Origin: a bacterium
GTDB lineage: Bacteria > Electryoneota > RPQS01
DNA: 64,000 nucleotides
Assembly (NCBI GenBank): GCA_036504735.1
Contig: DASXUQ010000019.1
Coordinates: forward strand, 1 to 64,000
Reading direction: 5' to 3'
Shown: positions 51,891-63,403 of the stretch, piece by piece
Position numbering within the stretch: position 1 is the stretch's first letter
Layout of the letters: every line of letters begins with the position of its first letter
Position numbers and translations under genes: made by a program
Notes under the pieces: generated by a model
Databases searched by the model: none
Told to the model about the DNA's origin: nothing
The model's input: only the letters and a program-made list of their open reading frames with translations

Positions 51891-54332
51891 TTAGCGGCCC
51901 TCCGAGCCTCTTACCGGGGTGTTCGAGGTGAATTTTGCCTTCTGAACCGATTCTTCGCGGGCGGCAAGCGTCTCAACCGTCTTGGTCAAACGCGAAACTT
52001 CCGCCGCCATGTTTTGGTTCTGGCTTTCCAGTTCGCGGACGCGCTTGCTGAGTTCCTGAATGGCGGCAAGAGCGATGCCGGAAGGATCAATGGTGGAGAT
52101 CGTCGTGTCATTGTCACCCAGACCGAACAGAGCGTAGAAATCCTGCGCCATGGGGCCGACGTGCTTGACGGAGGCGTTCTGCGCCTTGTAATTCCACTGC
52201 TGCACCGGGAGCTTGTCAACCTTGTCCAGAATCTCCCTGGTGTTCAGCGTGCGGAAATTCTCTTTCTTGGTGCGGTCCGAGAGATTGGACCACGCACCGG
52301 CACCCGGCAGCAGAGCGACGCCTGCCGTGAGGCCGGTATTCGAGAAGAACCGGACGCCGCCGGAGGCCCGGAACGTCATCTGGTCATTGGCACTTGATGT
52401 GACATCGCCGTCATAAGAATCGCCCCAGACGAAGGAACCTTGGTTGTTGGCCTTGGCACGGCGCCCCGCCGCAAACGCATAACTGCCAGCGGTCTCATTG
52501 CGGAGCCCACCGGGAATGACTGACCAGTTACCGCGGGCGCTGTTGGAGTCTGCCGCGCCCGATCCACCGCCACCACCAATAACAGAACTGTATCCGCGGG
52601 CAAAATTGTGATGGCCACCCGCCACTACGGAATTGTCGCCGAGCGCACTATTGGTATCCGCAGCTTCCCATGTTCCACCGCCGCCTACAACCGAGTACTG
52701 CCCACGTGCGTAGTTACCCGTACCTCCGCCAATCGTACCCGCAAACCCTGTTACGATGTTATACTTGCCGCCTCCGATTGATCCGTAATTCACGAGGGCG
52801 TGATTGAACGCTCCACCCGAAATTACAGCACCGTAACCGTTGGTTTCGTTGTACCAGCCGTTCGCGATAGTTGAATAGTCGCCGAATGCGACATTGTCAG
52901 ACCCGCCGCCGATCACGGGATAGTAATAGCCACTGGCCGTGTTGCCGCTGCCGCCGGCAATCACGCTGCCATAACCGGTGGCATGATTCCAACGCCCGCC
53001 CGAGACGGTGCTATAGGTGTTGGATGCATAGTTACTGACACCGCCACCGACGACGCTCTGAGTACCCACGGTGCTGTTGGAATCCGACTCCGCAGGTCCG
53101 CCACCGCCAGCGATAACGGAGTAGGCACCGCGCGCATAATTATGCAGTCCACCACCCACGACCGCATGGTCTCCATTCGCGCTGTTGGAGTCCGCCACAT
53201 CGGCATTGCCACCGCCGCCGCCGATGAAGGAAAACGCTCCACGCGCGTAGTTACGGCTTCCCCCACCGATGACAGCGTGATCTCCTGAGGCGCTGTTCGA
53301 ATCAGCCGCCGTGCTGCCGCCACCGCCGCCGATGAACGCGAATTGGCTACGGACCTTGTTGTACGATCCTCCGCCTACCGTGCCGTAGATTCCGGAGACG
53401 CTGTTCCAGGCGCCGCCGCCAATCGTTCCAACGGCTCCATCGCCCCCCGTGGCCCCGGGACCATCCACCTTGTTTTGAGTACCACCCCCGACAAAGGAGT
53501 AGTCCTTCATCGCGTTGTTTCCGGCGCCGGCACAGACGACGGAGCGGAAACCTGACGAGGTGTTCTGATAGCCACCGCCTACATAAGCGTAGGGGTAGTT
53601 GGCAATGTTCAACCATCCGCCGCCGATACCAGTATAGATGGCCGAGGCTGTATTGTTCAGACCACCGCCGATGACGCTCTGTACACCGGACGCGGTATTG
53701 CCTGAGCCTCCGGCGACGGAACTATTCGTTCCCGACGCCTGGCAGTTGTTACCCACCGCAAGGGAATAGGCACCGCTGGCCCGCGAACCGGTCAGGAAGC
53801 CACCAGTGATCGAGCTGTCGACGACGAGTTCACCAGTGACACGGAGAAAGTCCAAGCTTCCGTCATGACCACGCCGTCCCGTGGATCCGATTGCGCTGGC
53901 GCATTCATCGGCGTTTGTTGTCGAGATCTTTGCTCGCGGGCTCAGAACTTCCGCGTTGTCCGTGTTCGGGTTGACTGTGACATTCAGCCACAATTCACCC
54001 GTCTCGAACATTCGACGTTCGAGAGCGGTACTCGCGCCCAAGGTGGTCGTCAAGCGGCCGTCCGTAATCGAGACACTGTTTTGAATTTCCGTCCACAGCA
54101 AGGTACCGCCTTCGGCCGCATCGTAGAGTTCAAACTTCAACTCTCGCATACCGGTGACCGGTGTGCCGTCCTTTTCCGTCAGATAACCCCAGAACGGCAC
54201 CTGCAAGCCCGTGACGTTTGCAGGTTGTACCGCCACTGGCTTTGACGTCGTACCCTTTGTTCCCGCCGCCTGAGCCATTGCCGCCAGCGCGAAACATAGC
54301 AGTAATAAACCCAACAATCTCGCGTGTCTCAT
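51891..54332 (-). CDS. YadA-head-like repeat protein with S74-like chaperone tail
   Basis: 813 aa from the ATG at 54332, supported by AAGGAGAG eight bases upstream; the frame is open to 54494. Signal peptide (MRHARLLGLLLLCFALAAMA). After a beta-rich N-terminal domain (about 40-150), residues about 165-650 are 14-residue-type repeats (N-x-A-S-G-x-Y-S-x-V-x-G-G) like YadA/Hep_Hag heads, which form trimeric left-handed beta-rolls. The end has an intramolecular chaperone of the endosialidase/S74 type (LSDRTKKENFRTLNTREILD, then HVGPMAQDFYALFGLG) and a final coiled coil. Presumably a trimeric surface adhesin or fibre. First gene of a two-gene operon with the 192-aa protein. Confidence 0.85.
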   Translation of the reverse strand: MRHARLLGLLLLCFALAAMAQAAGTKGTTSKPVAVQPANVTGLQVPFWGYLTEKDGTPVTGMRELKFELYDAAEGGTLLWTEIQNSVSITDGRLTTTLGASTALERRMFETGELWLNVTVNPNTDNAEVLSPRAKISTTNADECASAIGSTGRRGHDGSLDFLRVTGELVVDSSITGGFLTGSRASGAYSLAVGNNCQASGTNSSVAGGSGNTASGVQSVIGGGLNNTASAIYTGIGGGWLNIANYPYAYVGGGYQNTSSGFRSVVCAGAGNNAMKDYSFVGGGTQNKVDGPGATGGDGAVGTIGGGAWNSVSGIYGTVGGGSYNKVRSQFAFIGGGGGSTAADSNSASGDHAVIGGGSRNYARGAFSFIGGGGGNADVADSNSANGDHAVVGGGLHNYARGAYSVIAGGGGPAESDSNSTVGTQSVVGGGVSNYASNTYSTVSGGRWNHATGYGSVIAGGSGNTASGYYYPVIGGGSDNVAFGDYSTIANGWYNETNGYGAVISGGAFNHALVNYGSIGGGKYNIVTGFAGTIGGGTGNYARGQYSVVGGGGTWEAADTNSALGDNSVVAGGHHNFARGYSSVIGGGGGSGAADSNSARGNWSVIPGGLRNETAGSYAFAAGRRAKANNQGSFVWGDSYDGDVTSSANDQMTFRASGGVRFFSNTGLTAGVALLPGAGAWSNLSDRTKKENFRTLNTREILDKVDKLPVQQWNYKAQNASVKHVGPMAQDFYALFGLGDNDTTISTIDPSGIALAAIQELSKRVRELESQNQNMAAEVSRLTKTVETLAAREESVQKAKFTSNTPVRGSEGR

Positions 54333-55480
54333 CTGTCTCTCCTTAACAGTTGTTTTCCGACAACCTTTTAATATGTCCTGATGTGGACGGCCCCTGAGTC
54401 GGTATTGGGGGTGTATGTGGAAATTTTGAGGAAGGGGGAAGGGTGGGTGCGCATCAAAGCAAGCCGCATGCAGCGCGTCCCGAGCAGAGCACATGTAACG
54501 GTCCCTGATGCAGCGCGAAACACAATCTCACAGGCTGCATTCCACCAAGCAACAGTGGCGATATACCTCCCTATTAATATGACTTAATCAATCTCTCTTG
54601 TCAAGCAAATTCGAATTTTACCATTTTGAATCATGACATAACAGTATTGTATGAATTGGCTTGGCAATTTATACAAATATTCTTGCAAATATTAGTCTTG
54701 CCTAAACATAGATACTTGATATTCCGTGAAGACTCGGCTTCTTCGGAATACGATATGGGAAACCTCTGTAGCTCGGAGACGGGAGATTAGAGGACACACG
54801 GATGTAGACCTCCTTGCTCATATTACAAAGAGGATGCTACAGCATATGCTATCCAGATTGACTGGGCGGCTGTTATGCTGATTCGGCCCGTCAATGTACG
54901 GCCTGTGTCCGGTTCCTCCTTGACTCCGGCATGGCGGGAAAGCCAGGCTGTCCTCAGCGCTTTGCCGCGAGCAGGAATGACGCGGATGTGGCTGTGTACG
55001 ACATCTCCGATTTCAACCCCTGCGTGATGGCGCGCGTGTGCCGCAGCAAACCAGTAAAGACGGTCGCACCGTGATAGATGCAACGAAGCGGGCTCTTCAA
55101 GAATGAAGAGCCCGCTTCGTTTGCACTCACCTATTGCAGCATCAGAGCAGGTGCGACCGTCGGCTGCATCCGCGACATTTGCGTACGCGTATCGGGCAAT
55201 GGTTGCCTCTTTTTTTCCATCGTTCAATGCGGCATTTTTCACGATCTTCAAACCGCGGTGCCTTTTGTCCCGCGCTCCAATTGGCGACGGTAACCGTGTC
55301 CTTTGATAGTGGCGTGCTGCGGCGCGACGCTTCATCACGCAGCACTTGCGCCGCAATTGGGCAACCTCATCGAAGACCCTACAAGGCATGTTTCTTGCGC
55401 TAACGCCGCGAAACTCGTCGCAGGAATTTTCGCGCAGGTAGATGGACTCGGTGCGTTGCCAAGGTCAAGAAAGGGACATT
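54333..55480. other. 1.15-kb intergenic region before the hydrogenase operon
   Basis: The first 250 bases are the upstream region of the S74-like gene; 54585-54730 is AT-rich. Between 54862 and 55074 a 70-codon open stretch ending NDADVAVYDISDFNP...TVAP has codon-like texture but no start codon or known family. The minus-strand frame 54823-55389 is not convincing. A strong nested inverted repeat is listed at 55059-55161. The last 300 bases should include the hydrogenase promoter. Confidence 0.45.
55059..55161. repeat. Nested perfect inverted repeats
   Basis: An outer 12-bp perfect pair (55059-55070 with 55150-55161) encloses a 17-bp perfect hairpin with a 6-base loop (55082-55098 with 55105-55121). 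The inner hairpin is followed by no clear T run on the plus strand. It may be a terminator, a structured RNA or the core of a small repeat element. Confidence 0.75.
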
Positions 55481-55975
55481 ATGCACGATTGCTGCGAAAA
55501 GCGTCAGATACTGCAGGAAGCCATGACCTTCCTCGGCGCCGTGTCCGGTGGAATGGAAGAAGCACTGGGTGATCCGGCGAACAGTCTGGCGTATCTGGCA
55601 GGAGAAAAATTAGGGCGCACGTTCTCAGAACAGGTTCACAAGACGGACAATATTATCGAGGCGCTGGACGAACTGCACCGCGTCCTCGAAGAGAACCGCT
55701 GCCTGTGGTGCTTCGAATCCTTTAAGCCCAAGGCGCAGGACACGCTGGTGCAGCGGACGGAAGGCGGTGAAGAGATCATGCTGGTGTTCCGCGATTGCAT
55801 GATCCGGCAGACGCTGTTCAGGTTCGGCCACCCCCAGAAAGGCTCACTCTGCAATCTGATGAACGGTTTTTTCGCCTCCTCCCTGCAGACGATCATGGAG
55901 CGGAAGTCCCGGTTGGAAATTGTCCACGCGGGACAGAACGCCTGTTACAAGAAACTGATCATCGAGCAGAAGTAA
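55481..55975 (+). CDS. V4R-like sensor protein, hydrogenase operon
   Basis: 164 aa from the ATG at 55481, with AAAGGG five to six bases upstream; the frame is open to 55442. No signal peptide. The C-terminal part has a cysteine pattern RDCMIRQTLF, GSLCNLMNGFFASSLQTIM and VHAGQNACYKKLI that resembles V4R/methanogen-output-type small-molecule-binding domains. The N-terminal half is helical with C-L-W-C near residue 80. The gene at 58630 is a paralogue with the same cysteine layout. Position at the head of the hydrogenase operon suggests a redox- or ligand-sensing or assembly role; function is not known. Confidence 0.7.
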   Translation: MHDCCEKRQILQEAMTFLGAVSGGMEEALGDPANSLAYLAGEKLGRTFSEQVHKTDNIIEALDELHRVLEENRCLWCFESFKPKAQDTLVQRTEGGEEIMLVFRDCMIRQTLFRFGHPQKGSLCNLMNGFFASSLQTIMERKSRLEIVHAGQNACYKKLIIEQK

Positions 55976-56029
55976 CGGCATCCCGGCACGTGTTGTTGCG
56001 GTGAATCTAATCATAAGGTTGTCGCCTCC

Positions 56030-56968
56030 ATGGGCAATCCCAAAATCACGCTGAATCTTGAATGGCTCAGCGCCTGCGCAGGCTGCGAAGTCGGAATCGT
56101 TGACTTGCATGAGAAAATCCTGGATGTGCTGGGGCTGGCGGAGATCCAACGCTGCCCGGTGCTGACCGACATTAAGGACTATCCCCCTGCCGATATCGGG
56201 ATTATCAGCGGCGCGATCCGCACCGAGCATGATCGCCACGCCGCCGAAGAGATGCGCAAGAGCTGCGGCAAGATTATTGCGTTCGGCACCTGCGCGGTGT
56301 ATGGCGGAATCCCCGGCGCGGGCATGGTCCACTCCCGCGAGGATATCCTCGATCACGTCTTCATTCACAACAAGACCACCGAAACGCATACCGTACCGCT
56401 CGCCCGGATCGCACCGTTGGAACATCAGATCACTCCCCTGGACGAGGTGATCGACGTGGACCTGTATCTTCCCGGCTGCCCGCCGCACGCGGCGTTTATT
56501 CTGGACGCCCTGCTGGCGCTGGTGGAAGGCCGCGCGCCCAAGGCCAATCAGGAGGCCATCTGCGGGCGCTGCAAGCGTGAGATGAAACAGACGGACGTGA
56601 GCACCATCAAGGGGCACCACGAAGGGCTGCCGGAAGATGGCGTCTGTTTTCTCAGCCAGGGTTACGTCTGTCTGGGCTCGGTGACGCTTGACCGCTGCCT
56701 TGCCCCCTGCCCCACCAACGGCGTGGAGTGCACGGGCTGTGCGGGGCCCACGATGCAGATCCTTACCGAACCCAATATGGATATCCGTACACATGTGGCG
56801 GACCGTATGTCCCACGTGACGGCGATTCCCCGCGCGGACATCATCCGCCGCATCGAACGTGAGTCTAAGAATTTCTACTCCTACGCCATGGCGTCCAAAA
56901 TGATCGGGCTGAAACCGACGTTCCTGATCCGAAAGTGGATCGCCGAAGTCGAGGAGGAACATGAGTGA
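56030..56968 (+). CDS. [NiFe] hydrogenase small subunit
   Basis: 312 aa with no twin-arginine signal, so cytoplasmic. N-terminal NLEWLSACAGCEVGIVD supplies C16 and C19 of the proximal cluster, with further ligands in GTCAVYGG and PGCPP. Extra cysteines (ICGRCKRE and CLAPCPTNGVECTGCAG) can hold further Fe-S clusters for electron transfer. The style is that of group 3 soluble hydrogenases (MvhG/HoxY-like). The stop overlaps the GTG start of the large subunit. No diaphorase subunit is encoded nearby; the ferredoxin gene downstream is the likely electron partner. Confidence 0.92.
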   Translation: MGNPKITLNLEWLSACAGCEVGIVDLHEKILDVLGLAEIQRCPVLTDIKDYPPADIGIISGAIRTEHDRHAAEEMRKSCGKIIAFGTCAVYGGIPGAGMVHSREDILDHVFIHNKTTETHTVPLARIAPLEHQITPLDEVIDVDLYLPGCPPHAAFILDALLALVEGRAPKANQEAICGRCKREMKQTDVSTIKGHHEGLPEDGVCFLSQGYVCLGSVTLDRCLAPCPTNGVECTGCAGPTMQILTEPNMDIRTHVADRMSHVTAIPRADIIRRIERESKNFYSYAMASKMIGLKPTFLIRKWIAEVEEEHE

Positions 56969-58377
56969 AACGCACCATTGCAATTGATCCGGTGACCCGG
57001 ATTGAAGGCCATGCAAAAGTCTTTCTGGACATCGCCGACGACGGATCGCTGGAGTCGGCGGGGTTGGTGGTCAATGAACTGCGCGGCTTCGAGAGGATTC
57101 TGGTGGGGATGTCCGCCGACCAGATGCCGCTGCTCACGGCGCGGATTTGCGGCGTTTGTCCATCGGCCCACCATCTGGCCGCCTGCAAAGCGCTCGACCA
57201 TGCGGCCGGAGTCACTCCGCCGCCTGCCGCCGTGCTGCTGCGCGAACTGCTCTACATGGGCCACATTATCCATTCGCATACCCTCTCGCTGTTTGTTCTG
57301 CAGGGTCCGGATCTGGTCCTTGGCCTCGATGCGGATCCGGCGGTGCGCAATATTGTAGGGGTCGTGCAGGCGGCACCCGAAGCTGCAAAGAAAGCGCTGC
57401 GGCTGCGCAGCCTGGGGCAGAAGATCAATGAAATGGTGGGCGGGCGAGGTGTGCATCCGGTTACGGGGGTTGCCGGCGGAATCACCTTCGTCCTGGACAA
57501 AGAGAAGCACAAGGTCCTTGAAGAGTGGACCGGCGAGAGCCTCGGGCTTGTCACTGAATTGGCCGGCCTCGCCAAGGGCCTGTTCATGCGACTCCTCGAG
57601 AAGACTCCTCAGTTGCTCACCCAATGGGATTTGCCCACGTGGTACATGGGCACGGTGAAGGACGGTGCCCATGCCTTCTACGACGGCACACTCCGGGTGA
57701 TGGACAGCGAAGGCAAAATTCAAACAGAGTTTGAAGCCGCTGAATACGACCGGCACCTCGCCGAAGCCGCGTTGGACTGGTCCTATATGAAACCGGTTTA
57801 TCTGCGCCGGGGAACTGAACGTGTGGCATACAGGGTGAACACGCTGGGCCGCATCAACTGCGCCGACCGCATGGCCACTCCGCTGGCCGACCAGGAACTG
57901 CAGAACTTCTGTCAGCAGTTCGGCAGACCGTGCCACAACACCCTGATGCACATTTATGCCCGCGTCATTGAGCTGGTATCTGCGTGTGAACGGGCGAAGA
58001 TGATCGTGGACGACAGGGCGATCTGGGGCGAAACGCGCGTGCCCATTCGCTTCAAGGGAGGACGGGGTGTAGGTCACATTGAAGCTGCCCGCGGTTCGCT
58101 GTTCCATGACTATGAGATCGATGAGCAGGGGATCGTGCGGCGGGCAAACCTTATTGTGGCCACGCAGCAGAATTACCACGCCATTAACCGCTCCATCGCC
58201 CAGGCCGCCGAGAGCCACGTGCTCCATAGGAATGGCGATGCCCTGCTGAACGCGGTGGAATTTGCGATTCGCTGCTACGATCCGTGCCTGTCCTGTGCGA
58301 CGCATGCGGTCGGTCATATGCCGCTGGATATCGAGATCCGGCGGAACGGCGACATCGTGCGCAACATAAGGAGGTAA
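56965..58377 (+). CDS. [NiFe] hydrogenase large subunit
   Basis: 470 aa from a GTG start behind GAGGAGG. The L1 motif RICGVCPSAHH (C62, C65) and the L2 motif DPCLSCATH (C441, C444) provide the four cysteine ligands of the Ni-Fe centre. After H447 a 23-residue C-terminal extension remains, which the maturation protease encoded at 59085 would be expected to remove once nickel is inserted. The overall pattern (RELLYMGHIIHSHTL, GGRGVHPVTGVAGG) is MvhA/HoxH-like, group 3. Catalyses reversible H2 oxidation in the cytoplasm. Confidence 0.94.
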   Translation: MKRTIAIDPVTRIEGHAKVFLDIADDGSLESAGLVVNELRGFERILVGMSADQMPLLTARICGVCPSAHHLAACKALDHAAGVTPPPAAVLLRELLYMGHIIHSHTLSLFVLQGPDLVLGLDADPAVRNIVGVVQAAPEAAKKALRLRSLGQKINEMVGGRGVHPVTGVAGGITFVLDKEKHKVLEEWTGESLGLVTELAGLAKGLFMRLLEKTPQLLTQWDLPTWYMGTVKDGAHAFYDGTLRVMDSEGKIQTEFEAAEYDRHLAEAALDWSYMKPVYLRRGTERVAYRVNTLGRINCADRMATPLADQELQNFCQQFGRPCHNTLMHIYARVIELVSACERAKMIVDDRAIWGETRVPIRFKGGRGVGHIEAARGSLFHDYEIDEQGIVRRANLIVATQQNYHAINRSIAQAAESHVLHRNGDALLNAVEFAIRCYDPCLSCATHAVGHMPLDIEIRRNGDIVRNIRR

Positions 58378-58381
58378 CGGA

Positions 58382-58633
58382 ATGGTTCAAATCGCTATTC
58401 ATGACACCGCCTGCCGGGGCTGCCGCGAGTGCGTGGACCTCTGTCCTACGGACGTGCTGGTGTTTGACGAACAGACGCGCCGCGCCCGAGTCGGTGAGGC
58501 GGACGACTGCATCGCCTGTCTGAGCTGCGCGTACGCCTGCCCATCCGGCGCGTTCAGCCACGCCGATTATCACGTGGTCAAGAATTTCTACCGGGATCTC
58601 GACTTCTGCCGCACGATGGAGAAATACCTATGA
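58382..58633 (+). CDS. 2[4Fe-4S] ferredoxin
   Basis: 83 aa. Two full cluster motifs, CRGCRECVDLCP and CIACLSCAYACP, in the usual two-cluster ferredoxin arrangement. It follows the large subunit by four bases with GGAGG upstream (inside the previous stop region) and overlaps the next gene by 4 bp. It most likely carries electrons between the hydrogenase and a partner that is not encoded in this window. Confidence 0.93.
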   Translation: MVQIAIHDTACRGCRECVDLCPTDVLVFDEQTRRARVGEADDCIACLSCAYACPSGAFSHADYHVVKNFYRDLDFCRTMEKYL

Positions 58634-59088
58634 CCGGCCCCGCTCCCGCCGCCCCCAGTGCTGAAGATCATGAAAAGGCCATGGCCGAAGTCTCGTTTCT
58701 CCTTGGCATGTTCGCGGCTACAATCGACGATTTGATGGGAGGCGCCACCAGCTCGGTGAGCCGCATCGCGGGACGGCACATGGCCCGCAAGCTCCCGATT
58801 CATCTGGAGGCTCATGATCTCGAAAGCGTGCTTCAGGCCGTCACCCATCATTTCCGGGGTGGCTTTGACATTACGTGCGCTTGCCGTGAAGGATCGGCGG
58901 ACCTGACCATTGCCCAGTGCGCCATTCGCGACGTATGCCATAACCGCGGTCTTAAGCCGGGCGGCCCCTTGTGTACATTATTCCACAGCTATTTCGACGG
59001 AGTGATCAACGAACTCCACTACCGTCCGACAAAGTCCGAAATCCGCTCGGCCGGCGATGTGTGCACAGCGCATATGGTGCATCGATGA
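58630..59088 (+). CDS. V4R-like protein, paralogue of the 55481 gene
   Basis: 152 aa, soluble. The C-terminal half reads AQCAIRDVCHNRGLKPGGPL, then CTLFHSYFDGVINEL and RSAGDVCTAHM, aligning cysteine for cysteine with the protein at 55481 (DCMIRQ..., GSLCNLMNGFFASSL, AGQNAC). N-terminal half is helical (EVSFLLGMFAATIDDLMGG). Overlaps both the ferredoxin and the protease gene by 4 bp, so it is an integral part of the operon. Role unknown: cluster or ligand sensing, or an assembly factor, are possible. Confidence 0.7.
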   Translation: MTGPAPAAPSAEDHEKAMAEVSFLLGMFAATIDDLMGGATSSVSRIAGRHMARKLPIHLEAHDLESVLQAVTHHFRGGFDITCACREGSADLTIAQCAIRDVCHNRGLKPGGPLCTLFHSYFDGVINELHYRPTKSEIRSAGDVCTAHMVHR

Positions 59089-59576
59089 GTGAAACGGGCG
59101 GCGGTTTGATTGTGTGCGTGGGAAACAGTCTGGCCGGCGATGACCGCGCCGGATGCGCGGTCCACGATATGCTTTCGCGTGCAAACCTGCCCGGCAGTGT
59201 CACCCTGCTTCGGCTGGATTTGGCCGGGTTGGGGCTCCTGGACCATTTGAAAGGCCAGCACCTCCTCTTGATCGTGGACGCCGTTCAGCTGGGAAAACCG
59301 CCCGGTACGGTTCATGTGCTGGATTGGGATGAGATTCCCCCCTCTTCCGGAGCGGTATCGATTCACGGCATTGGAATCCGTGAGGCCATGGGAATTGCCG
59401 GAGAACTATTCGCCGATCAGTTGCCGCAATGCACGCGACTGATCGGAATTGAAGGACGCAGCTTCAGCGAATTGGGGGCGGAGATGACTGCGCCGGTCGC
59501 AGCGGCCATTCCGCGAGCCGTCGAGGAAATTGAGAAGCAACTTAAGCTGGCTGGCTTACACGACGAGGCCTTATGA
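59085..59576 (+). CDS. Hydrogenase maturation protease
   Basis: 163 aa. The start IVCVGNSLAGDDRAGCAVHD has the conserved G-N-x-L-x-x-D-D pattern whose aspartate binds nickel; a second acidic residue lies in LLLIVDAVQLG and the histidine in SIHGIGIREAM. HyaD/HoxW/HybD family endopeptidases cleave the large-subunit C-terminus after metal insertion. The ATG at 59085 overlaps the preceding stop; the longer frame from 58971 lies inside the previous gene. The tail overlaps the chemoreceptor start by 4 bp. Confidence 0.92.
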   Translation: MSETGGGLIVCVGNSLAGDDRAGCAVHDMLSRANLPGSVTLLRLDLAGLGLLDHLKGQHLLLIVDAVQLGKPPGTVHVLDWDEIPPSSGAVSIHGIGIREAMGIAGELFADQLPQCTRLIGIEGRSFSELGAEMTAPVAAAIPRAVEEIEKQLKLAGLHDEAL

Positions 59577-61603
59577 GCAAACCCGAACATCCCAAAGACT
59601 CCGAGCGCAATTCCTCCAAATGTCCGCCACGGCCGCCAAAGGAGGGAGCTACACATCCTGCCCCGAGTGGTGAGTTGGACCCGCGCATGCTGGCTTCGCT
59701 GCCGGTGGCGCTGTGCGGCACGAATCGCGCGGGCACGATTGTGTTCTGGAGTACAGCCATGCGCGCCCTCACGGCACAGGACACCCACGATGTTCTCGGG
59801 CAGCCCTTGTGCTCTGTGGTCAACAACGCAGATGCGCTGGAGGTTCTCGAACAGGCTCTGGACAGCGGGCAGGTGGCGACCACCGAGACCTTTGCGCTTT
59901 CCAACCGGGAATCGGGGCAGTCGACCGATGTAAAAGTCACGGTAACACCCGTCGTTGCCGAGGACGGCGGTACGCTGGGCTGCTGGCTGGAAGTGCGCCG
60001 CCATCAGACAGGGCTCTCCAGTTCCGACACGCGCGAGGCTGCGGCGGAGATTCTGCGGCTGGCCGAGGAGATGATGAACGGCGAACTCTCCGCACGGGGG
60101 CGGGAAGCCGACTTCAGCGGCGCCGCCGCCGAAGTGATTTGCGCGGTGAACCAGATGCTGGACGCGCTAATCACTCCGCTGCGGGTTGCGGCCGAATCGA
60201 TCCGCCAGATGGCTCACGGCTCTATTCCGGACTTCATCATCACCGAATACAAGGGTGAGTTTAACGAAATCAAGCGCAACCTGAACACGTTTCTGGCGGT
60301 GCTCTACGGGATGCACCACGAAACCCAGAATTTGATCCGTGCGATCAAAGAGGGCAAGCTGGACACGCGCGGCAACGATTGGGACTTCGAAGGGAACTGG
60401 AAGGCACTGATCGCGGGGGTCAACGACGTGCTTGACGCCACCATCAATCCGGTGCAGGAAGCCAGCGGTGTCCTGAGCAAGCTGTCGACCTACGATTTAA
60501 CGGCCCGTATGAGCGGCAAGTATCGCGGCGATCACGCTCGCATCAAGAAGGTGCTGAACACGTCGCTGCACTCCCTGTGTGAAGCCTTCCTGCAGGTTTC
60601 CGGAGCGGTCTCCAAGGTGTCCGCCGCCGCGCAAGAGATTTCCCGCAGCAGCGACGCCGTGGCGGCGGGCGCCTCCGAACAGGCATCATCGCTCCGCGAG
60701 ATTTCGGGCAGCATGACCCAGATTGCGCAACACTCCAAGCAGACCGCCGAGAATACGAAGCAGGCGCGGGAAATCACCGTGACGGCTCAGCAATCAGTGG
60801 AGGACGGGCGGTCGGGCATGATGGAACTGCTTGACGCCGTCGGACAGATCCGCGCCGCAGCGGAGAATACACAGACGATTCTGCAGGAGATCAACGCCAT
60901 TTCATCGCAGACGGACGAGCTGGCCAAGAATGCCGCCCGCGAGGCCGCGCGGGTCGGAGCCTCGGCACGGGGTTTTGCAGTGGTGGCGGAGGAAGTGCGG
61001 AAGTTGTCGAAACGATCCAAAGATGTTGCCGTGAATATTGAACAGATTGCGGAGGTCACTGTCGGCGCGGGAGACGGCGAGGCCGGTGCGGAATTGTCTC
61101 AAGACGGCATGGAGAAGGTGGTGAAGGAACTCCACACCATGGCGCTGCAAACGAATTACCTTGCGCTGAACGCGGCGGTGGAGGCGGCCTATGTAGACCA
61201 GGCAGGCGCGGGGTTTGAAGCCGTCACGGCCAAAGTGCAGGATCTTGCCGGGCGGTCCAAGGAGTCGGCGGTGAAAACCGAAGGGCTCTTAAATGACTCC
61301 GTCGCGCTCTCCCGCAACGGCGAGGAACTGTCGCGCAGCGTCAATTCCGAACTGGTCTCGATCATTGACTCGGTGGGGCGCGTGACGGAACTGGTGAACA
61401 AGATTTCCGGAGCCAGTGACCGGCAGGCCGCGGAAGTAGACGGCGTGAACCAGATGATCGCCCAGATCAACCGGGTGACGCAGGAAAACAGCGAGAGTGC
61501 CAACCGCAGCACACAGGCTGCCGCCGAGCTGACCAGCCAAACCGAGACGCTCTCCGAGTCGGTGCACCGGTTCAAACTGCCAACGGGGTGCGTGGCGCCA
61601 TAG
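59573..61603 (+). CDS. Soluble chemoreceptor with duplicated signalling tip
   Basis: 676 aa with no membrane segment. A Pro-rich N-terminus, a PAS-like domain (about 38-145), HAMP-like helical repeats (about 155-345), then the coiled-coil signalling domain. The highly conserved hairpin-tip consensus is present twice: residues ~441-490 (INAISSQTDELAKNAAREAA, GFAVVAEEVRKLS) and ~521-570 (LHTMALQTNYLALNAAVEAA, GFEAVTAKVQDLA). Each copy departs from consensus in different residues. Co-transcribed by 4-bp overlap with the hydrogenase maturation gene, it may sense redox or hydrogenase state and steer motility or another Che output; no che genes are in the window. A hairpin terminator follows at 61637. 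Confidence 0.9.
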   Translation: MSKPEHPKDSERNSSKCPPRPPKEGATHPAPSGELDPRMLASLPVALCGTNRAGTIVFWSTAMRALTAQDTHDVLGQPLCSVVNNADALEVLEQALDSGQVATTETFALSNRESGQSTDVKVTVTPVVAEDGGTLGCWLEVRRHQTGLSSSDTREAAAEILRLAEEMMNGELSARGREADFSGAAAEVICAVNQMLDALITPLRVAAESIRQMAHGSIPDFIITEYKGEFNEIKRNLNTFLAVLYGMHHETQNLIRAIKEGKLDTRGNDWDFEGNWKALIAGVNDVLDATINPVQEASGVLSKLSTYDLTARMSGKYRGDHARIKKVLNTSLHSLCEAFLQVSGAVSKVSAAAQEISRSSDAVAAGASEQASSLREISGSMTQIAQHSKQTAENTKQAREITVTAQQSVEDGRSGMMELLDAVGQIRAAAENTQTILQEINAISSQTDELAKNAAREAARVGASARGFAVVAEEVRKLSKRSKDVAVNIEQIAEVTVGAGDGEAGAELSQDGMEKVVKELHTMALQTNYLALNAAVEAAYVDQAGAGFEAVTAKVQDLAGRSKESAVKTEGLLNDSVALSRNGEELSRSVNSELVSIIDSVGRVTELVNKISGASDRQAAEVDGVNQMIAQINRVTQENSESANRSTQAAAELTSQTETLSESVHRFKLPTGCVAP

Positions 61604-61958: not shown

Positions 61959-62623
61959 TTGTTGGAGAGTCCTCTGCTACGGGTAGAACAGACAAGCGAT
62001 TATGGCTCCAAGCCCGGCAGTCAGAGTGATGCGGGATCGGATGCAGACCTCATCGGACGCACCCTAAGCGGCGATGAGTCGGCCTTTCGCGTGCTTGTTG
62101 AACGCTATCAGGCGCAAGTGGCGGCGACCGTGATTGGAATATTGGGGTCCGGAACAGAGGCGGAGGACGCAGGCCAGGAGACGTTTATCCGCCTGTTCCG
62201 GTCACTCAGCAGGATTCGCGGCGAATCGTCACTGGGGACGTATGTGACGCGGATTGCCATTAATCTGAGTCTGGATGCGGCGCGGAGGCGGCACAGGCGA
62301 CGATTCTGGCTGCGAATCGATGACGAAGATGAAGCGCTGCCGGAAGCGTTAATCGTGGAAAGCGGTCAGAATGCCGAGAGCAACGAACGGCGGGAGCGAG
62401 TGCAGCGGGCGGTGCGGGCACTCGATCCCAAGCACCGCGCGGTGGTGGTGCTGCGCATGATTCGCGGCTTCTCGACGAAAGAGACAGCGGTGTTGCTGGG
62501 AATTCCCGCAGGGACAGTATTGTCACGACTGCCCGGGCACAAGAGAAGCTGCGGCCTATGCTGCAGTCCCTGATGGACGATGAACGGATTGACGGAGGAG
62601 AGCGGATTGAAATCAAAGGTTAA
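61959..62623 (+). CDS. ECF sigma factor, 3' end frameshifted
   Basis: Region sigma-2 (DADLIGRTLSGDESAFRVLV, GQETFIRLFRSLSRIRGESS) and region sigma-4 (AVRALDPKHRAVVVLRMIRG, TKETAVLLGIPAGTVLSRL) are clear. In the uncorrected frame the protein ends at 62573 with a foreign tail (PGHKRSCGLCCSP). One missing base around 62529-62535 explains this: the other frame continues ARAQEKLRPMLQSLMDDERI and stops at 62621-62623, giving a normal family end and overlap with the next gene's TTG start. Either an assembly error or a real truncation of the last helix of sigma-4. The start is uncertain: TTG at 61959 or 61962, or a codon just after GGAGAG at 61964. Confidence 0.82.
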
Positions 62624-62951
62624 CATTTCGGAGAAGGCGCGGAACGCCGGCGAGGAGCGCAGGCTTTGGATGCTGCTGGCCGGGAGTGCGGGAACGTTTG
62701 ATACGTACTTTCCGGCGCGGGTGATGGCACGGCTCCACTCCCGGCAACCGGAGGACGAATGGATTGCCGGGCTGCTTGTCGCCTTCCGCCGGGTGGCGCT
62801 GGTGGCAACGATTCTCACAGGTTTGCTGGTCAGCTACAATATCGTCACGCAATGGGAAGCACGGCGGGATTTGAATGCGGTGGAAATTACTCTGGCGATA
62901 CCTCCGGCCACGATTCAAAGCTCCCTTGACCACATGGACTTCGGCTTATGA
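62607..62951 (+). CDS. One-helix membrane protein, probable anti-sigma factor
   Basis: 114 aa from the TTG at 62607, chosen because GGAGGAGAG lies directly upstream; the frame is open to an ATG at 62580. A cytosolic N-terminal part of about 65 residues, one membrane helix (VALVATILTGLLVSYNIV) and a short periplasmic tail. The position between an ECF sigma factor and a CnrX-like sensor, with 4-bp overlap to the latter, fits an anti-sigma factor such as CnrY, but there is no sequence signature to prove it. Confidence 0.65.
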   Translation: MKSKVNISEKARNAGEERRLWMLLAGSAGTFDTYFPARVMARLHSRQPEDEWIAGLLVAFRRVALVATILTGLLVSYNIVTQWEARRDLNAVEITLAIPPATIQSSLDHMDFGL

Positions 62952-63403
62952 AACTGGAACCCAAACCTGCGCTAGTGGTGATCGGTACGCTGTTGATCGG
63001 CATGGCACTCGGCGCGCTGCTGCTTTCGGTGGTGATGCGGTTCCGGATGGAGCGTCTGCACCACATGATGGGGCATGGCGGCTTTCAGCAGAGTTTAATC
63101 GAAGCCATCGGGCCGATGAACGATACGCAGCGCACGGCGGTTGAAGAAGAAATCCGGCAGTCTTCGGTGCGGATCGACTCCACGATGAACGCAAGCCGCG
63201 GGCAAATCGACGCGATGATCGATTCGATGAATGTGCGCCTCGATTCGCTGCTGACGCCGGAGCAAAGAACGCGGCTGCACCAGGAGATAGGCCGCCGCCC
63301 GCACGGGCGTGGTGGTCCCCCTTTCGGCGGGCCCCGTTTCGGAGGTCTTCCCCCACCCGATGGCCGCCACAACGGTTCGCCGCATGAGCATGACGAACGA
63401 TAG
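62948..63403 (+). CDS. Membrane-anchored CpxP/CnrX-like periplasmic sensor
   Basis: 151 aa. One N-terminal helix (about 8-30, ALVVIGTLLIGMALGALLL), then a helical periplasmic domain with LTPEQRTRLHQEI, the Spy/CpxP/ZraP LTxxQ-type motif, and a His/Met-rich stretch just after the helix (MERLHHMMGHGG) plus a Gly/Pro/His-rich tail ending PHEHDER. These histidines and methionines could bind metal. In CnrYXH-type modules the equivalent protein senses metal and triggers release of the sigma factor. Metal specificity cannot be inferred. Confidence 0.78.
   Translation: MKLEPKPALVVIGTLLIGMALGALLLSVVMRFRMERLHHMMGHGGFQQSLIEAIGPMNDTQRTAVEEEIRQSSVRIDSTMNASRGQIDAMIDSMNVRLDSLLTPEQRTRLHQEIGRRPHGRGGPPFGGPRFGGLPPPDGRHNGSPHEHDER

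Follow-up and report, generated by a model that had tools for sequence, protein, structure and literature searches.

A seven-gene operon in a genome of the bacterial phylum Electryoneota places a [NiFe] hydrogenase, a ferredoxin, and two paralogous V4R-like proteins beside a soluble chemoreceptor. The reading favored here, at a probability of roughly 0.55, is that the hydrogenase/ferredoxin/V4R complex serves as the cytoplasmic H2 or redox input of that receptor, which is the best reading of the anatomy of the predicted proteins. New here is the architecture of the hydrogenase-linked receptors: the signaling tip is duplicated and degenerate in 35/35 chains, the arms are near-invariant in length, and 34/35 chains start without a recognizable sensor.

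Organization of the operon and its catalytic proteins

A reading-frame check of the window, i.e., the whole 64,000-nucleotide stretch analyzed, identified seven open reading frames at 55481-61603, all on the plus strand and all where an earlier sequence-only reading had placed them. In order, they encode V4R-like protein 1 (V4R1, 164 aa; 55481..55975), an MvhG/VhuG-like hydrogenase small subunit (312 aa; 56030..56968), an MvhA/VhuA-like large subunit with a C-terminal extension past its DPCxxCxxH motif (56965..58377), a 2[4Fe-4S] ferredoxin (83 aa; 58382..58633; Fer4_7, 8.6e-11), V4R-like protein 2 (V4R2, 152 aa; 58630..59088), a HycI/HupD-type hydrogenase maturation protease (59085..59576; TIGR00072, 1.7e-32, above the cut-off), and the soluble chemoreceptor (676 aa; 59573..61603). 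The 4-base overlaps described earlier hold for four of the six junctions (small/large subunit, ferredoxin/V4R2, V4R2/protease, and protease/receptor) but not for large subunit/ferredoxin and V4R1/small subunit, which are separated by gaps of 4 and 54 bases, respectively. Neither the operon nor the neighboring frames showed a gene for a diaphorase, MvhD, or Hdr, in agreement with the earlier statement that a diaphorase is missing. Directly downstream, at 61959-63403, lie a sigma factor gene, which we take to be RpoE-like, and then small genes, one of them presumably Spy/CpxP-like. On the minus strand at 51891-54494, an 867-aa repeat protein carries many GGG-type repeats and a C-terminal DRTKKENF... 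segment, which we take to resemble the peptidase S74-type intramolecular chaperone of surface and tail-fibre proteins.

Judged from sequence, group 3c (Mvh/Vhu) contains the nearest relatives of the hydrogenase. The small subunit matched the NCBIfam model NF045875 (VhuG) at 2.7e-65 and 220.5 bits, below the curated cut-off of 450, and MvhG of PDB 5odc_E at 2.9e-65, while the large subunit matched NF041785 (VhuA) at 5.9e-117 and 390.7 bits, below the curated cut-off of 800, and PDB 5odc_F at 1e-111. Among solved structures and curated families, both subunits are thus nearest to the MvhAGD-HdrABC complex of methanogens; however, that system has MvhD and Hdr, whereas the present operon has neither and scores at about half the curated cut-offs. 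In a sequence tree, the hydrogenase clade of the operon is separate from the Mvh-Hdr/group 3c-like enzymes of its own phylum (support 100/100). The same genome holds a separate cluster of the Mvh-Hdr type at approximately C19:307882-315000, where adjacent frames resemble HdrA, HdrB, HdrC, and hyp genes (hypF-, hypD-, and hypE-like), names assigned by the look of the sequences. The operon hydrogenase is therefore an additional enzyme without those partners.

All the hallmarks of a catalytic [NiFe] hydrogenase are present, namely RxCGxC, DPCxxCxxH, the C-terminal extension, and the protease. The RxCGxC and DPCxxCxxH ligands are invariant in every aligned row covering those positions, as are large-subunit residues R60, C62, V64, C65, C441, C444, and H447 among the relatives; 13 of the 14 small-subunit cysteines are invariant across relatives, and the remaining one is kept in 22/23 rows. 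In the ferredoxin, all eight cluster cysteines are invariant (20 sequences), and a C-terminal tail, VKNFYRDLEFC.RMEKFL, is conserved. With extension and protease both kept, the hydrogenase looks like a working enzyme. The H2-sensing regulatory hydrogenases of group 2b are not known to have a C-terminal extension or a protease. The histidine kinase-linked members of that group in HydDB (HupUV/HoxBC) resemble the proposed system in using a [NiFe] enzyme as an H2 sensor; in contrast, their output is a kinase, and the operon described here has the protease, the extension, and V64 of the catalytic type.

The V4R-like pair

V4R1 and V4R2 are paralogous, as established by hhalign comparison of the two family alignments (probability 97.7, E 1.4e-12). 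C105, C123, and C154 of V4R1 (numbered as in P0001, which begins one codon after the ATG) are invariant in 21/21 family members, and C97, C115, and C145 of V4R2, together with C103, are kept in 23-24 of 24 members. Three family-invariant cysteines are common to both proteins, bearing out the cysteine layout that the sequence-only reading had described as shared. An AlphaFold2 model of V4R1 (pTM 0.75) gave Foldseek matches to YslB, the V4R sensor domains of MopR/PoxR, TRAPP Bet3/TPC6, MJ1460, and H-NOX, and V4R1 is accordingly modeled as having the V4R/TRAPP/H-NOX fold. Membership of the V4R family by sequence failed: the gathering score of PF02830 was not reached (6/21 V4R1 and 2/24 V4R2 family members match, best 0.0043), and hhalign to five V4R proteins gave probabilities of 21 and 0.2. 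The label "V4R-like" thus holds for the fold, from the V4R1 model, and not for the sequence family. Pfam ATC_hydrolase (PF14196) is matched by 23 of the 24 V4R2 family members, with a best E of 2.2e-7 in a relative; V4R2 of the window scored 19.9 bits, under the gathering score of 28.1. V4R1 is present in 19/19 searched genomes holding the operon and in 0/5 genomes without it. In a receptor-less genome, a V4R1-like domain (G055:C487:9604-10032; E 5.9e-26) lies inside a 389-aa open frame, possibly a fusion protein.

A chemoreceptor with two tips

The window receptor has a PAS domain (aa 38-136; 59684..59980; PF00989, 2.9e-12), HAMP_2 domains (PF18947, 9.5e-39), and an MCP signaling region (PF00015, 3e-38); all 17 members scanned match the MCP signaling family. 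By alignment, supported by the PF00015 model positions covered, the signaling region contains two copies of the hairpin tip, at approximately aa 434-475 (60872..60997; model positions 3-99) and aa 514-555 (61112..61237; model positions 34-172). The same duplication was found in every one of 35 hydrogenase-linked receptors, comprising the window, 16 from cross-phylum relatives, one from the relative G019, and 17 further Geobacterales sequences; the single canonical hairpin tip of an MCP was found in 0/35, with two degenerate copies instead. Among the 34 rows measured (G019 left out), 123 residues separate the end of the HAMP region from the first tip, 134 residues lie between the second tip and a conserved KF near the C-terminus (except for L043, at 108, which ends at a contig end), and the inter-tip stretch, at 71-82 residues, is the sole variable length. 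Such near-invariant arm lengths argue for a constrained signaling hairpin. The PAS domain was seen in the window receptor alone, and the other 34 chains begin with the first HAMP domain or slightly upstream of it.

Matches to canonical variants averaged 0.40 and 0.51 for the two halves of tip 1 and 0.49 and 0.49 for those of tip 2. A complementary degeneration, with tip 1 keeping its C half and tip 2 its N half, was suggested by inspection of the sequences by eye; the means bear it out weakly and just for tip 1, and we do not claim it. In an AlphaFold2 model of the signaling region (pTM 0.42, shallow alignment), two long straight helices meet at a single turn within the linker joining the tips, and the tips could form either two hairpins or one elongated hairpin. 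Since the tip is both duplicated and degenerate, it probably contacts CheA/CheW in a nonstandard manner.

Other receptors in the same genomes match the double-tip family profile over one half only. Exactly one full-length double-tip receptor is encoded in each of this genome, G019, and Geobacter sp. OR-1: in the first and third it lies within the operon, and in G019 it adjoins the protease where a contig ends. The same profile search found none genome-wide in six receptor-less genomes that hold the other six genes, discounting a receptor encoded elsewhere in them. Aer2-type soluble poly-HAMP receptors are similar in their HAMP_2 domains, and Aer2 is the best NCBIfam match (6.8e-70, far under the cut-off); they differ in that the tip is duplicated here and a PAS domain occurs in the window copy alone. 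The Geobacter receptor class "40+24H" might overlap with the double-tip receptors.

Che genes, for which the sequence-only reading had suggested a search, are indeed present elsewhere in this genome: CheA and CheW genes, FliG, and a cluster of canonical receptors were found, as well as open reading frames resembling CheR, CheB, CheD, and CheY. In a comparison of few and related genomes, a clear CheA was found in 18/18 receptor-bearing versus 3/6 receptor-less genomes, and FliG in 16/18 versus 3/6; two genomes with the receptor-less core (G057 and G059) nevertheless have both FliG and CheA. Two tandem CheW genes at C18:21763-23700 (L070:8749-10740) each contain ~100 extra residues within the CheW domain, presumably a CZB-type zinc domain. 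An MCP-domain remnant at C12:85323-85585, split over two frames, was rejected as a receptor gene, as it contains no intact gene.

Distribution of the operon and its proposed sensory role

A large-subunit scan of the GTDB contig set identified at least 22 relatives (56-71% identity), a lower bound given that the scan requires exact 7-residue matches, from Eisenbacteria, Latescibacterota, Ignavibacteriota, Desulfuromonadales, Myxococcota, Pseudomonadota, Actinomycetota, and Desulfobulbales. The complete seven-gene order occurs in 14 of these 22; L047 and L057 have the receptor in loci cut by contig ends, with L047 also lacking the protease, and the remaining six, which have no receptor, carry genes one to six as far as their contigs reach. 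The sole relative from the phylum of the window (G019) has V4R1 to V4R2 on one contig, with protease and receptor ending another. Within Geobacterales, the hydrogenase was found in 32/141 genomes; among 30 loci read, six of them repeating genomes from the cross-phylum scan, all 29 that are untruncated or nearly so have the seven genes, the receptor being recognized by its first part. Within Desulfobulbales, it was found in 27/258 genomes, four of them repeats from the cross-phylum scan; the six-gene core is fixed in 27/27, and the receptor is absent from all of these within the 245-313 bases searched after the protease. No kinase, cyclase, or other substitute output gene recurs downstream of the six receptor-less loci or upstream of four of them.

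No relative lacks either V4R-like gene where its contig extends far enough to show it. Receptor-bearing operons form one hydrogenase clade in the sequence tree (support 99/97) that spans several phyla, with no receptor loss seen inside it in this sample. The sequence-only reading had named homologous operons lacking receptor and V4R-like genes throughout as the pattern that would make the association accidental; instead, the V4R pair is universal as far as the contigs reach and the receptor clade-wide. As the six-gene core is equally fixed without a receptor, it is the stable unit; the V4R pair goes with the hydrogenase, and the receptor is restricted to a single lineage, in which it was probably added. 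A single gain is the simplest account of the receptor, and its loss at the base of the tree is a possible alternative.

In the proposed mechanism, H2 would be split at the NiFe site, predicted to be intact from its active-site and cluster ligands, and electrons would pass through the small-subunit FeS clusters to the 2[4Fe-4S] ferredoxin. Given an operon that lacks genes for MvhD, Hdr, and a diaphorase, the V4R-fold pair may use its invariant cysteines to read either the electrons or the complex's redox state. In the window's lineage, the complex would dock on the soluble poly-HAMP receptor, sensorless outside the window, and docking would shift receptor control of CheA, giving attractant or repellent taxis in response to H2 or a redox state; the PAS domain of the window receptor would be a second possible input. 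The lack of a recognizable sensor in 34/35 receptors is what one would predict for an input provided by the hydrogenase complex. The most economical account of these sequences would have one redox unit (hydrogenase, ferredoxin, and V4R pair) used alone in some lineages and as a sensory head elsewhere. That this unit is a detachable head, for a receptor that lacks a sensor of its own, by loss or from the outset, and signals via its doubled tip, is held more tentatively, at slightly less than even odds. Caution is called for chiefly by two findings, the core without a receptor and the degeneracy of the tips: the core must serve some receptor-free function, its V4R pair cannot count as evidence of chemotaxis, and a duplicated tip that is degenerate at canonical positions may fail to activate CheA normally. 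The earlier suggestion of a hydrogenase wired to sensing is partly supported by the single receptor clade and the sensorless receptors, but does not extend to the 27/27 Desulfobulbales and other receptor-less loci.

Several competing readings bear on this role. A soluble hydrogenase of metabolic function, either bidirectional or evolving H2 and partnered by ferredoxin, that acquired a receptor for ordinary energy taxis, sensing being secondary, would account for the fixed six-gene core of Desulfobulbales and for ligands, extension, and protease of the working-enzyme type, and would fit the H2 production suggested for Mvh of Geobacter sulfurreducens (PMC7894505). We regard it as rather unlikely, in that the operon encodes no electron acceptor past ferredoxin, two paralogous V4R-fold proteins are retained in every relative, and the receptor clade shows no receptor loss in the sample. 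Less probable still is a receptor-like protein acting outside chemotaxis, as a hydrogenase scaffold, a coiled-coil regulator, or a feed into a non-motility Che-like pathway, several Che-like pathways being present in Geobacter (PMC2577667). Both tips depart from the canonical one (40-51% of positions per half matching on average), and the low-confidence model with its straight helices and one turn in the linker points the same way; the MCP family matches in 17/17 members, the CheA of these genomes, and the near-invariant arms argue against it. An accidental neighborhood of receptor and V4R-like genes with the hydrogenase has in its favor a patchy distribution (2/39 genomes of the window's phylum and 1/47 in the phylum of the Eisenbacteria relative) and nothing else; it has a negligible probability and is ruled out by a gene order that is conserved across phyla, including 29/29 Geobacterales loci, while the genes flanking the seven on both sides differ between relatives.

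The Mvh cluster of G. sulfurreducens (GSU2416-2423) includes a methyl-accepting chemotaxis transducer, MvhV, which was annotated with no role given (PMC7894505, PMC8691401), and a part in producing H2, and not in taking it up, was proposed for the hydrogenase of this cluster (PMC7894505). The likeness lies in the joint presence of an Mvh hydrogenase and a receptor; the seven-gene order recurs in Geobacter sp. OR-1 and 29/29 Geobacterales loci, and the operon of these loci is likely this Mvh cluster. In the HydDB classification, "chemotactic" hydrogenases are named only for the putative [FeFe] group C2, proposed to signal through an MCP (PMC5037454); the proposed output is comparable, and the [FeFe] family is unrelated to the [NiFe] enzyme described here. 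The mainly open-access literature searched yielded no account of the double tip, the absence of a sensor, the cross-phylum operon, or the function of the receptor, and earlier descriptions are possible, e.g., in surveys of Geobacter hydrogenases.

To our knowledge, how bacteria sense H2 in order to steer their movement is poorly known. The operon, carried by 32/141 Geobacterales genomes, is a genetically accessible candidate for such sensing and, if the detachable-head reading is true, would represent the first [NiFe] chemotactic hydrogenase, along with a new receptor architecture. A sensorless receptor with a double tip also prompts a wider question, namely by what means an enzyme complex could control an array of receptors. 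If the enzyme is the "nose", the hydrogenase itself may report H2 or redox state to swimming bacteria.
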